Shown piece by piece: positions 9,217 to 33,416 of a stretch of DNA of 33,417 nucleotides (positions within the stretch are counted from its first letter, which is position 1; each line of letters begins with the position of its first letter). Below the pieces are notes generated by a model. It was given only the letters and a program-made list of their open reading frames with translations. It was not told where the DNA came from and did no database searches. Origin of the DNA: Azoarcus sp. (lineage in GTDB: Bacteria; Pseudomonadota; Gammaproteobacteria; Burkholderiales; Rhodocyclaceae); assembly GCA_031257305.1 (NCBI GenBank), contig JAIRPB010000197.1, positions 1-33,417 on the forward strand, given 5' to 3'. A program made the translations under genes and the position numbers.

Positions 9217-9386
9217 AGGTAAGGATAGGGATGCTTATAGGCAAGATTTTTTGGGTTAGGCACGGTGACAAAAACGACTTCGCGGGGTTCTTGCCGTGCC
9301 GTGTAGCGCAGAAAGCGAACCTCTCCGAAATTTCAGTGCCTTGTCCGAGAGTGTGGGTGTTATTTGCAGAAAAATCAGGGCAAAAC

Positions 9387-9410
9387 AAAATCGGCCCGAA
9401 GGCCGATTTT
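9387..9410 (-). terminator. Rho-independent terminator for the TPEK-repeat gene
   Basis: Minus-strand AAAATCGGCC-TTCG-GGCCGATTTTGTTTTG: 10-bp stem with UUCG tetraloop, 28 nt past the stop codon. Confidence 0.85.
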
Positions 9411-9437
9411 GACAATCAAACAGGCAGAGGAAAGCGT

Positions 9438-10343
9438 TTAGACAATCGCGAGGTCAGTCGTCCCGACAATTTCAACATCGCTGTTTGCTGTAGCGTTGAT
9501 GCCGAGTGTTCCGGCAACGTCTGTCACAATCCCGGCAATCCCGGCGACAACGGTAGCGGGGCCTGGGATATGTAAGTCGACAGACCCGGCAGTGAGATTG
9601 AGGCCGTTCGCGAGGCTGATGTCGAGGTCGAAGTCTTTTTCAGGCGTCGTGAGGTCTTTATCGACGTTGACTTTGATTTCGGTAAGCCCTACGGCAACTT
9701 CGACCGATTTTTCGGGCGTTGCGACAGCGACATCAACGCCCTTGAAGAGACTGACATCAACTCCAACCGCCTTTTCAGGCGTTGCGACGGCAACATGGAC
9801 TCCCGGTATGGGGCCTACGCCGACTTCGACGGCCTTTTCAGGCGTTGCCACGCCAACTTCGACGCCCTTGAAGATGCCGACACCGACTTCAACCGCCTTT
9901 TCGGGCGTTGCGACGGCGACACTGACACCCGATAAGGGACCTACGTCCACCGCGACGGCTTTTTCTGGCGTGATGGCGCTGACGCTGACTCCGGTAAGGC
10001 CAACGCTAAGGTCGAAGTCTTTTTCGGGCGTAGAAAGGTCTTTGTCGACACTGACTTTGACACCCTTGATGCCCACGCCGACATCGACGGATTTTTCGGG
10101 CGTGGTTACGTCAACACCTATTCCGCCCAAACCGAGGCTGAGTTCGACTGTTTTCTCGGGGGTATCGACAATCTTGAAAGTCGTCGTTGTCGCTTCAACA
10201 ATGGAAGAGACGACCGAGGAAACGGTAGAAGTAACGGTGGAAAAAATGGAAGAAACAGTGGATACCACCGAGGAAAACTTTGGAATGGCGGTGACAACTG
10301 CTTTAACAGCGGATGTTAGGAAACCGAACAAAGAAGAAGCCAT
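9438..10343 (-). CDS. Uncharacterised repetitive protein with nine TPEK beta-rich repeats
   Basis: 301 aa from the ATG at 10343 (ORF track opens 11 codons earlier); GGAGG 7 nt before this ATG; nine TPEK units of mostly 20-24 aa; followed by a strong terminator. Confidence 0.85.
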   Translation of the reverse strand: MASSLFGFLTSAVKAVVTAIPKFSSVVSTVSSIFSTVTSTVSSVVSSIVEATTTTFKIVDTPEKTVELSLGLGGIGVDVTTPEKSVDVGVGIKGVKVSVDKDLSTPEKDFDLSVGLTGVSVSAITPEKAVAVDVGPLSGVSVAVATPEKAVEVGVGIFKGVEVGVATPEKAVEVGVGPIPGVHVAVATPEKAVGVDVSLFKGVDVAVATPEKSVEVAVGLTEIKVNVDKDLTTPEKDFDLDISLANGLNLTAGSVDLHIPGPATVVAGIAGIVTDVAGTLGINATANSDVEIVGTTDLAIV

Positions 10344-10439
10344 AATAATCCCTCCAAAAAGATAGCTCCTAGCCAAAAGGGGAAACGGACGCTGGCGAGG
10401 TAATCCGTAAAACTACCTGCTTTGCCGTGACGCTAAATG

Positions 10440-10467
10440 GTAATACAAAAATGTTGAAAAATGTAAA
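10440..10467 (-). promoter_or_regulatory. Candidate sigma70 promoter for the TPEK-repeat gene
   Basis: TTTACA-N16-TATTAC on the minus strand about 97 nt upstream of the ATG. Confidence 0.4.
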
Positions 10468-24475: not shown

Positions 24476-24531
24476 CCCGCGCCGCTTCCAACGCCTGTTC
24501 AACCCGGTTTGGCGCTATGAGCCTCGATGTC
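24476..24531 (-). repeat. Diverged duplicate of the radA 3' end (copy A)
   Basis: Matches 25347..25401 by hand alignment: 30/33 nt, an unrelated 8/7-nt stretch, then 13/15 nt. Confidence 0.7.
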
Positions 24532-25229
24532 TGCGTCGCTTACGCTCACGTTTTCCGGCAAATCGTATTTTGTGCGAATTCGTTTCTCAATCTCTTCAAT
24601 AGAAGGCAGTGTGTCGGCTAATTCCTGTGGTACATAATCGGACAATTTGTATTCACTAACACCGATAGGCTTGTTGACATCTTTCAACGCATATTCTGCC
24701 GTAAGTTTATCTTTTTGTTTGCACAATAATATTCCGATAGAAGGGTTGTCCGATTCGTGTTTTAATAAATCGTCAACTGCGGAAAGATAGAAATTTAATT
24801 TTCCTGCGTATTCCGGCTTAAATTTTCCGGTTTTAAGTTCAATAACCACATAACAGTGAAGTCGTGTATTATAGAATAATAAGTCGATATAATAATCTTC
24901 ATTAGTAAGATATTATGTGACCAGCTGAATTGTGCAGAGAGTGTCTGCACAATTTGAAAGTCACTAACAAAAGCAGCAAATTTACGCATGTATTTCAGAT
25001 TGCGAACTGAATATCCTTTTGTTTTCGGAAATTCCAACTTTATATCTTTGGCAAGATTCTCTACAAACTTATTTCCATACTGAGTATTTTTGATTATTAT
25101 ATTTCCAATATTCCAATATAGTACAATCTGTTCATGGTTAATACTTAAAACTGCGTTATGTTGCGCGATTTTGATTCGTTCTTTGATTTGCTCCAAAACA
25201 GCGAAATACCCTTCATTATTTATCAGCAT
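24499..25229 (-). pseudogene. YhcG/DUF1016-family PDDEXK nuclease gene, internally deleted and frameshifted
   Basis: N-terminal ORF (MLINNEGYFAVLEQIKERIKIAQ...LYWNIGNII...LSAQFSWSHNILL) and C-terminal frame EDYYIDLLFYNTRLHCYVVIELKTGKFKPEYAGKLNFYLSAVDDLLK lie in different frames and abut, lacking the middle part. Confidence 0.8.
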
Positions 25230-28136: not shown

Positions 28137-28460
28137 TTATGCGGACAATCTGGCGCTTACGAAGCGGTTTAAGCTGATACCTTCTTCTGCGGCTTTGATG
28201 GCCAGTGCGCGATGGATAGTCGGCGGTACGCGCACTAAAAATTTCCCGCTATATTCACGGTCCGCTATCGGTTGCGGGATTTCCTCGCCATTGTCCTGCA
28301 TGTCTTTGACAGCCGAAGCCACGGCTTGCCGGATTCCCGCAAGGGCTTTTTCTGGCGAAGCGGCAAGCCACGACAGCGACGGAAACTCAATACAAAGGCC
28401 AACATGCTCACCATCCTCTGGCGACCATGTAACGCGGTAGGTGTAATGGTCAAGATTCAT
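28137..28460 (-). CDS. hicB: HicB-family antitoxin
   Basis: YTYRVTWSPEDGEHVGLCIEFPSLSWLAASPEKALAGIRQAV plus C-terminal ribbon-helix-helix-like FLVRVPPTIHRALAIKAAEEGISLNRFVSARL. Confidence 0.85.
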   Translation of the reverse strand: MNLDHYTYRVTWSPEDGEHVGLCIEFPSLSWLAASPEKALAGIRQAVASAVKDMQDNGEEIPQPIADREYSGKFLVRVPPTIHRALAIKAAEEGISLNRFVSARLSA

Positions 28461-31046: not shown

Positions 31047-31631
31047 ATGAGAAAGCATTTTTTTTCCTTGCTGGCGGTCTCCTGCGGTCTCCTGTTATTT
31101 GCCGTTATGGTGTGCGGTGTGCAGGCGCAAGAGAATAAAGGGAGCACTGCGGCACGGGTTCCAAGCCTTGTCACTATTTTTTGGGGCATCGTCAGCTACA
31201 CGCGCTGGCCGGAGGCTAAAACACCAGACTCCGAGGCAAAGCCTATGCGGATATGTTTGCCGGCAAAAGACAAGCGAGCCGCGCTGCTTAGCAAATCTGC
31301 CGTAACGTTTGGGCCTAAAAGCCCGGTTCAAATCCGTGACTCGCTCGAAAATGCCGCAACCGAGTGTGATATTCTGTATGTATATAATATGAACGGCGAT
31401 GAAACGGGCAAGTTACTGCAATCGCTCCGAAATGCGCCTGTGCTAACCATTGGCGAAGGGAATACGTTTTGTTCACTGGGCGGGATGTTTTGCCTGTTAT
31501 CCAACAACATGGATAGCGGGGGAGAGACAAGCATTGATAAGTTCGCTGCAAATCTGGGTGCTATTTCGAGCAGTCCCCTGCGGATTAACCCGCAAGTGCT
31601 GCGTTTGTCGAAACGTGGGCGGGAGCGCTAA
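31047..31631 (+). CDS. yfiR: YfiR family periplasmic regulator
   Basis: Signal peptide, then FWGIVSYTRWPE, ECDILYVY, VLTIGEGNTFCSLGGMFCLL, FAANLGAISSSPLRINPQVLRLSK; precedes a GGDEF protein and OmpA lipoprotein. Confidence 0.85.
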   Translation: MRKHFFSLLAVSCGLLLFAVMVCGVQAQENKGSTAARVPSLVTIFWGIVSYTRWPEAKTPDSEAKPMRICLPAKDKRAALLSKSAVTFGPKSPVQIRDSLENAATECDILYVYNMNGDETGKLLQSLRNAPVLTIGEGNTFCSLGGMFCLLSNNMDSGGETSIDKFAANLGAISSSPLRINPQVLRLSKRGRER

Positions 31632-31634
31632 AAA

Positions 31635-32909
31635 ATGATGGGCCGCAAAACCCTTTTCGGAGTGCTTCGTTACATTATTTCGTGGTCGGTTGCCATGACG
31701 TTGCTCATCAGCAGCGTTATGTTCGCGGCAACGTTTTTCCATACCGTCCGCTTACAGCGCGAAGACAACATCGAGCTTATTGCCCGCACGGCCGCCTATT
31801 CAACCGAAGCGGCAGTCATGTTTGGCGACGACCAAGCGGCAAACGAAATTCTTAAAGATATTCTCAACAAAGAAGAAATCTGCCGGATTACGCTCTACGC
31901 CGAACCCCAAGGCAATGTGTTCGCAAACGCCGAAAAACCGTGCGACAGCACCTCCGACGCTTTCTTCTCCGGCGTCACCAAACGGATTGACGTAAAGCAC
32001 AAAGAAGAAGGGCAAGACGGGGAGCGCCTGCTGGGCGCCATCGAAATCAAAAGCCAAGACTCCAAGCTCTACAAAACGTTTTTGTACCACGGGATACTCG
32101 TCCTGTTTTTCTGCCTCATCCTCGCCGTACTAGTCGCCCGGGTTCCCGCACGGTGGATGGAACAACGGTTTTCCTCCGAACTTCACGCGCTCTCTGGCAT
32201 GGCGCATGCCGCACGGCTAGAAGGCGATTTCACCCGGCGCCTGCCCTCGTTTGAAATTGCTGAATTCAATGGCCTAGGGCAAGACTTCAACGCGCTATTC
32301 AGCGAAATTCAAACCCGTAACGCCGAACTCGCCATCAGGCAACAGCATCTCGAATCCGTTAATAGAAGCCTGTCAAGCATGGCCATGTGCGATTCCCTCA
32401 CGGGGCTGGCCAACCGCGCCTGCTTTGGCGAACAGCTTGAAATCGCCATCAGCAAGGCGCGGGCGAACGAAACAAAAGTGGGCATCCTGTATATCGACAA
32501 TGACCACTTCAAAGACATCAACGATAGCTACGGCCACTCTGCGGGAGATTCCCTGCTAGTCAACGTTGGCAAGCGGCTCTCCGGCGCTGTGCGCGATAGC
32601 GACTTAGTCGCCCGGCTGGGCGGGGACGAATTCGCCATTCTGCTCACAACCGTCAGCGGCGAAGACGACCTGCGGCATGTCTCAAACAAAATCTTGGCGG
32701 CGATGGCACGCAAGCTACGTCTCGCCGAACGTGAAGGGGTCGATGTCGAACTCGGCGTAAGCATTGGCATGGCCATCTTTCCAGACCAAGCCAATGACGG
32801 GCTTTCACTGTTACGCGCCGCTGACCAAGCCATGTACCGTGCCAAGCGCCTTGGGCGCGGCCGGTCCTGCATGTACGACCCCTCTGTTGATGCTGGCCTA
32901 GGAGGATAA
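31635..32909 (+). CDS. yfiN: Membrane diguanylate cyclase, YfiN-like
   Basis: Two TM segments flanking a periplasmic region, HAMP-like linker, GGDEF domain with intact LVARLGGDEFAILL. Confidence 0.9.
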   Translation: MMGRKTLFGVLRYIISWSVAMTLLISSVMFAATFFHTVRLQREDNIELIARTAAYSTEAAVMFGDDQAANEILKDILNKEEICRITLYAEPQGNVFANAEKPCDSTSDAFFSGVTKRIDVKHKEEGQDGERLLGAIEIKSQDSKLYKTFLYHGILVLFFCLILAVLVARVPARWMEQRFSSELHALSGMAHAARLEGDFTRRLPSFEIAEFNGLGQDFNALFSEIQTRNAELAIRQQHLESVNRSLSSMAMCDSLTGLANRACFGEQLEIAISKARANETKVGILYIDNDHFKDINDSYGHSAGDSLLVNVGKRLSGAVRDSDLVARLGGDEFAILLTTVSGEDDLRHVSNKILAAMARKLRLAEREGVDVELGVSIGMAIFPDQANDGLSLLRAADQAMYRAKRLGRGRSCMYDPSVDAGLGG

Positions 32910-32912
32910 AGG

Positions 32913-33416
32913 ATGATGTCCATTGCAATACGTCCGGCGCTCACCCGCATGTGGGCGATGCTGTTTTGTGCGGGTTTGCTTGCCGCAGGCTGTAAAAGCC
33001 TAGGGTTGAGCGACGAACAAATTACCGCCCTCAAGGACGCAGGTTTTCACAAAGAAGAAGAAGGCTGGGAGCTTGATTTTGAAGGGCTTTTGCTATTTGA
33101 AAGCAATGCCTCTGAACTCACCCCGCACAGCCGCGAAACAATTGTGCGCACGGTAAAGTTGCTCAAAGACATCGGCATTGGCCAAGTCAGGGTTGAGGGT
33201 TACGCCGACAACACGGGCAACAAAGCGCACAACGAAAAACTCTCCCTAGCGCGGGCAGAAGCCGTTGCGCAAGAAATCGAACGCGCCGGCCTGCCCCGCA
33301 GCAATATCACTGTCAAAGGTTTTGGCGCCGCAAACCCGGTCGGCAACAACAAAACCCGCGAAGGCCGCGCCCAAAACCGCCGGGTCGCCATCATTATTCA
33401 GGTGGATGATTTGTAG
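32913..33416 (+). CDS. yfiB: OmpA-family lipoprotein, YfiB-like
   Basis: Lipobox LLAAGC, OmpA peptidoglycan-binding motifs VEGYADNTGNKAHNEKLSLARAEAV...NRRVAI. Confidence 0.88.
   Translation: MMSIAIRPALTRMWAMLFCAGLLAAGCKSLGLSDEQITALKDAGFHKEEEGWELDFEGLLLFESNASELTPHSRETIVRTVKLLKDIGIGQVRVEGYADNTGNKAHNEKLSLARAEAVAQEIERAGLPRSNITVKGFGAANPVGNNKTREGRAQNRRVAIIIQVDDL

Follow-up and report, generated by a model that had tools for sequence, protein, structure and literature searches.

A small TPEK-repeat protein family of one Azoarcus lineage, most likely structural and located at the cell surface or secreted

The repeats of the curli subunit CsgA are comparable in length to units of 20–24 residues, OspA is a spirochaete lipoprotein, and the HTHP family consists of a small hexamer-forming protein and is defined by its heme-coordinating tyrosine. 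The substrates of type I secretion carry an uncleaved C-terminal signal that ends in acidic and then hydrophobic residues. CdzC and CdzD of Caulobacter are aggregating, glycine-zipper surface proteins secreted by a type I system (PMC5380434). The AprA-like proteases have a known type I signal at the very C-terminus, an Asp with three hydrophobic residues after it (PMC2642768). Here we describe a TPEK repeat protein, P0001, whose gene lies in a window of 33,417 nucleotides (the whole stretch of DNA analysed) from an Azoarcus sp. genome, and compare it with these systems.

P0001 is encoded by a 301-codon gene on the minus strand, running from 10343 to 9438, with an ATG start and a TAA stop. The features of the gene and its product, in order of transcription, are the following.

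10440..10467, minus strand: possible promoter, TTTACA-16-TATTAC, picked by eye only, weak and missed by the consensus scan
10350..10355, minus strand: ribosome-binding site GGAGGG, 6 nt 5′ of the ATG, read from the sequence
9438..10343, minus strand: TPEK repeat protein gene, 301 aa, an ORF with ATG, ribosome-binding site and terminator, and with homologues P0002–P0004 in the same sense
10170..10343, minus strand: N-terminal amphipathic helical region, residues 1–58, assigned from the hydrophobic moment and from helices at residues 2–45 in the model, at low pLDDT
9576..10163, minus strand: nine TPEK units, residues 61–256, with two predicted beta-strands each, from the repeat count, the V-x-V alternation and the AlphaFold model
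9504..9557, minus strand: predicted small-residue helix, residues 263–280, 3′ of the repeats, from the AlphaFold model at low pLDDT and from matching zippers in P0002–P0004
9441..9479, minus strand: C-terminal tail DVEIVGTTDLAIV, candidate type I secretion signal, aligned with the ends of P0003 and P0004, and with no Lys or Arg among the last 50 residues of the protein
9386..9411, minus strand: intrinsic terminator hairpin with a UUCG loop, computed fold

The TPEK ORF is a genuine gene, as the first-pass annotation had held: the ATG, the GGAGGG site 6 nt before it and a strong terminator (AAAATCGGCC-TTCG-GGCCGATTTT, with a fold of −17.7 kcal/mol and z = −3.56) all belong to the minus strand. 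The same annotation gave the gene its own candidate promoter, which was not confirmed: a sigma-70 consensus scan found none on the minus strand, and TTTACA-16-TATTAC is a by-eye candidate only. The gene is flanked by a thiolase gene (plus strand) on one side and by murJ (minus strand) on the other, and no Rfam family was matched in the window. A plus-strand open frame of 289 aa (9496–10365) runs antisense to the TPEK gene, and similar shadow frames lie over its relatives. Elsewhere in the window, three consecutive plus-strand genes at 31047–33413 resemble the YfiR-YfiN-YfiB cyclic-di-GMP control set (judged by eye from the N-termini), two overlapping partial minus-strand frames at 24502–25229 look by eye like one frameshifted DUF1016-type nuclease gene, and a small protein at 28140–28460 on the minus strand is, again by eye, like a HicB-type antitoxin.

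The motif TPEK occurs at residues 61, 81, 105, 125, 146, 167, 188, 209 and 233, with spacings of 20, 24, 20, 21, 21, 21, 21 and 24 aa, which confirms the nine units, mostly of 20–24 aa, reported earlier; when P0001 was shuffled 2000 times, no 4-mer was seen more than 7 times, and the most frequent one averaged 2.1 occurrences. The V-x-V alternation (41 occurrences) likewise stands far above the 15.4 ± 3.4 of the shuffles (maximum 30). The protein contains 61 valines, has no Cys, Trp or Tyr, and has a pI of 4.4. The codons for TPEK differ among the units, with Pro as CCC, CCA or CCT and Lys as AAA or AAG, and a comparison of the units over their first 11 codons gives pS = 0.62 and pN = 0.19. 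Because pS exceeds pN in 35 of the 36 unit pairs, the units have been conserved at the protein level rather than copied recently, in agreement with the earlier view of them as old repeats maintained as protein. Residues 81–124 and 209–252 share a longer unit form, VDKDL-[ST]-TPEKDFDL, seen directly in both; this suggests that the two stretches are copies of one double unit, left by an older block duplication.

The AlphaFold model of P0001 draws two strands per unit and predicts beta-strands in all nine units, with a pLDDT of about 52–73 over the repeats (about 60–73 over the greater part of them), below 50 at the termini and 53 on average. The model of P0003 is poor (mean pLDDT 43.5) and has the same strand pattern. 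The earlier proposal of two short strands per unit is thus supported by the model at modest confidence, while a model of moderate confidence with no significant fold match does not separate a beta-solenoid, with parallel strands in coils stacked in register, from stacked hairpins or a meander. In a Foldseek search, no fold matched the P0001 model at E ≤ 0.001; the weak neighbours were antiparallel meanders (OspA, VDAC and propellers). The 58 N-terminal residues have a helical hydrophobic moment of 0.40, compared with 0.18 ± 0.036 in shuffles. No signal peptide is apparent by eye from the P0001 sequence.

In the Pfam search of P0001, one match exceeded the cut-off, namely HTHP (PF11534) with a whole-protein score of 26.8 versus 25 bits, over a 28-residue stretch corresponding to profile positions 9–36 of 72. 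We reject it as spurious because the 301 residues include no tyrosine, so that the defining heme ligand is impossible. Nothing came near the cut-off in NCBIfam, which, with the sole Pfam match a false positive, supports the first-pass annotation, which knew of no named family with this repeat. Matches to tape-measure proteins in PHROGs are confined to the N-terminal helix, a low-complexity region, and were treated as compositional. There was no sequence match to P0001 among solved structures, and no paper naming a bacterial TPEK repeat was found in the literature.

No orthologue of full-length P0001 was found in 61 relatives, in the whole genus (n = 22 genomes), in plasmids or in a pattern search of genome and viral contigs. 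A sister gene encoding a 123-aa protein with VTPGANVGVDVGAGGVGVGV units, P0002, was reached via a weak match elsewhere in the same genome. A profile of the TPEK units alone finds P0002 at E = 7.4e-7, and P0002 as query finds the TPEK stretches at E = 7.7e-6. P0002 is in turn matched by P0003 (E = 8.3e-8) and P0004 (E = 1.6e-5), proteins of 151 and 154 aa with 75% mutual identity that come from two further genomes of the genus, whose contigs are deposited as 'MAG: Azoarcus sp.'. The first-pass annotation missed both the sister gene and the P0003/P0004 pair, which have features of the N- and C-terminus in common with P0001. The genes of this pair share a neighbourhood, each adjoining a gene called QueH-like by eye; in the sense frame their dN/dS of 0.51 (bootstrap 0.30–0.83) shows purifying selection. 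Rhodocyclaceae clades that co-evolve with termites have been published, in a paper that does not name these bins, and from those clades, together with the naming style of the isolates, we infer that the P0003 and P0004 genomes are termite-gut genomes; the bacterium with P0001 would then be related to termite-gut symbionts.

The three smaller proteins carry small-residue zippers at the place that matches the post-repeat helix of P0001: GKVIGSLVGGIFG in P0002 and G-x3-S-x3-G-x3-G in P0003 and P0004. At the C-terminus, the tail DVEIVGTTDLAIV of P0001 aligns with NDVDITGT..ADFTLV and NGVDLTGT..ADFTLV of P0003 and P0004, and the alignment extends to the last residue (TDLAIV, ADFTLV and ADFTLV, respectively). 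P0002 ends in PQIPY, so the acidic-then-hydrophobic tail is present in three of the four members, and a profile of the tail run across the genus found these three and no further ones. Judged from these sequence matches, P0001–P0004 make up one real family, and this TPEK repeat family is genuine, small and apparently young. Since a paralogue and an orthologous pair exist, it is more than a curiosity.

Searches beyond the genus brought no further member. The TPEK-unit profile found nothing besides P0002 in 400 genomes of the order; in the phylum (about 400 genomes) it gave three weak matches, none of them a homologue. The profile of the small proteins was run on the family (about 400 genomes) and on the class (about 370 genomes) and gave weak matches only, and those that were translated were not homologues. 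The weak matches in other families (among them G299, G280, G803 and G1258) were translated and dismissed as membrane proteins, chance repeats or shadow frames; for some of the loci the translated frame was not on the matched strand and carries little weight, all of these being weak (E > 0.004). Composition-biased repeats may inflate E-values; the order-wide search with the TPEK-unit profile gave no false match. At the thiolase and MurJ loci of relatives there is no adjoining TPEK-like gene. The thiolase gene itself is present in all 22 genomes of the genus, 21 of which lack TPEK. In one relative (G004:C52) thiolase and murJ are adjacent in tandem orientation and the TPEK gene is absent, which indicates that the gene order around the TPEK site has been rearranged.

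The P0001 genome contains two complete-looking inner-membrane type I systems (domain names given by eye except for HlyD). The first, on contig C21 (L109, 4587–9694), has two tandem ABC genes and an HlyD-type gene and lies at the contig end; the second, on contig C27 (L110, 1–5618), has an ABC gene with a peptidase-like domain and HlyD. These are the two HlyD-type genes above the cut-off in the genome, accompanied by ABC genes. The system on C27 adjoins a large Bap-like adhesin, of which the contig end leaves only the N-terminal part. As nearly the whole genus has type I systems, their presence does not discriminate, and none of P0001–P0004 has a type I gene adjoining it. In the tails of P0001, P0003 and P0004, the Asp is followed by four residues, one of them small (Ala or Thr), rather than by exactly three hydrophobic ones. 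P0001 has no RTX array (GGxGxDxUx), only a single chance-like GGxGxD that is nowhere repeated. CsgG (PF03783) had no match in this genome, which is 96.6% complete; a CsgG-domain match is found in 19 of the 22 genomes of the genus, i.e. in 19 of the 21 other members.

Based on the acidic-then-hydrophobic tail, the two type I systems, the lack of CsgG and the lack of an apparent signal peptide, we propose type I export and a role at the surface or in the matrix. P0001 is most likely structural, either secreted or located at the cell surface, with export and function read from these traits. The fuller reading that we favour, in which P0001 is an extracellular beta-repeat protein specific to its lineage and leaves the cell through one of the two type I systems of its genome, is put forward tentatively, its probability falling somewhat short of even. 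P0001 would then be the largest protein in a small family of extracellular beta-repeat proteins that evolves fast and is restricted to one lineage. Shown here are the family, its conservation, the type I genes of the genome and the layout, namely an N-terminus that is hydrophobic or amphipathic and has no apparent signal peptide, predicted strand-turn-strand units of ~20–24 residues with the valines along one side, a small-residue helix and, in three of the four members, an acidic-then-hydrophobic end. Presumably, the tail would be read by one of the type I systems, which would export the chain unfolded; outside the cell, the valine faces may pack against each other or assemble, and both kinds of helix, amphipathic and small-residue, may anchor the protein to the cell surface or within a matrix, so that it could act in adhesion or in building a matrix in the gut. 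Protein length would be set by the unit number, which differs among the members. It is rather doubtful that all of this applies together in its boldest form, i.e. a new self-assembling extracellular beta-repeat polymer from one termite-gut symbiont lineage, with RTX-less type I export and with a length that changes as units are gained or lost.

A curli-like functional amyloid subunit built of 20–24-residue strand-turn-strand repeats would account for the strand pattern, which is like that of the imperfect repeats of CsgA (PMC11005368), and for the repeat length, the high valine content and the clear alternation. It is nevertheless unlikely, given that P0001 matches no Pfam Curlin repeat and lacks the curli consensus, that its genome has no CsgG and that no Sec signal peptide is apparent from its sequence. 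Self-assembly may still take place outside the curli pathway and would then belong to the favoured reading of an exported extracellular beta-repeat protein.

Distinctly unlikely is a bacteriocin-like protein that stays on the surface as CdzC and CdzD do and whose glycine-zipper helices would enter the membrane of a neighbouring cell while the beta-repeats form surface aggregates. The zippers of P0002–P0004, the strongly amphipathic N-terminus of P0001 and the aggregating, type I-secreted nature of CdzC/D all fit such a function, but P0001 has no extended glycine zipper, no secretion or three-helix immunity gene adjoins any of P0001–P0004, and CdzC/D are proteins of only 84–86 aa with adjacent cdzAB and cdzI. 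We give an equally low probability to an intracellular coat or scaffold, in which the amphipathic helix and one-sided valine sheets would lie on a lipid or polymer-granule surface. The N-terminal amphipathicity, one weak fold match to apolipoprotein B and an adjoining thiolase that could feed polyester synthesis speak for it; yet that thiolase is a genus-wide gene mostly found without TPEK, P0002–P0004 are not near such genes, and the conserved tail would be left unexplained. That the apparent gene is a mere shadow of the long antisense frame at 9496–10365 is extremely improbable and already largely refuted, since the ribosome-binding site and terminator match the minus strand, the homologues are conserved in the sense frame, and stops occur in the antisense frames of P0003 and P0004.

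The four proteins constitute a repeat family that is absent from Pfam and NCBIfam and is limited, as far as sampled, to one genus. If export is confirmed, P0001 would be a short non-RTX type I cargo and, for a symbiont, a surface protein of recent origin specific to its lineage. With a paralogue and an orthologue pair at hand, the family lends itself to studying how repeat proteins originate and lengthen.

Compared with HTHP, P0001 shares a 28-residue stretch that passes the Pfam cut-off, and lacks tyrosine. Its likeness to the single-layer beta-sheet of OspA is weak and not significant (Foldseek E about 0.03, TM below 0.3), with no sequence similarity. Like curli CsgA, P0001 is made of tandem strand-turn-strand units of ~20–24 residues; unlike it, P0001 has a helical N-terminus and is without the S/Q/N/G curli consensus, an apparent signal peptide or CsgG in its genome. 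P0001 lacks the RTX nonapeptide array and the catalytic domain of the type I proteases and lipases AprA, PrtG and TliA, and resembles them in the acidic and then hydrophobic residues at the extreme C-terminus. The TPEK family differs from CdzC/CdzD in that its members are not 84–86 aa long, have no adjacent secretion or immunity genes and are dominated by beta-repeats, whereas both have small-residue zippers and a hydrophobic, aggregation-prone composition; type I export, shown for CdzC/CdzD, is proposed for the TPEK family.
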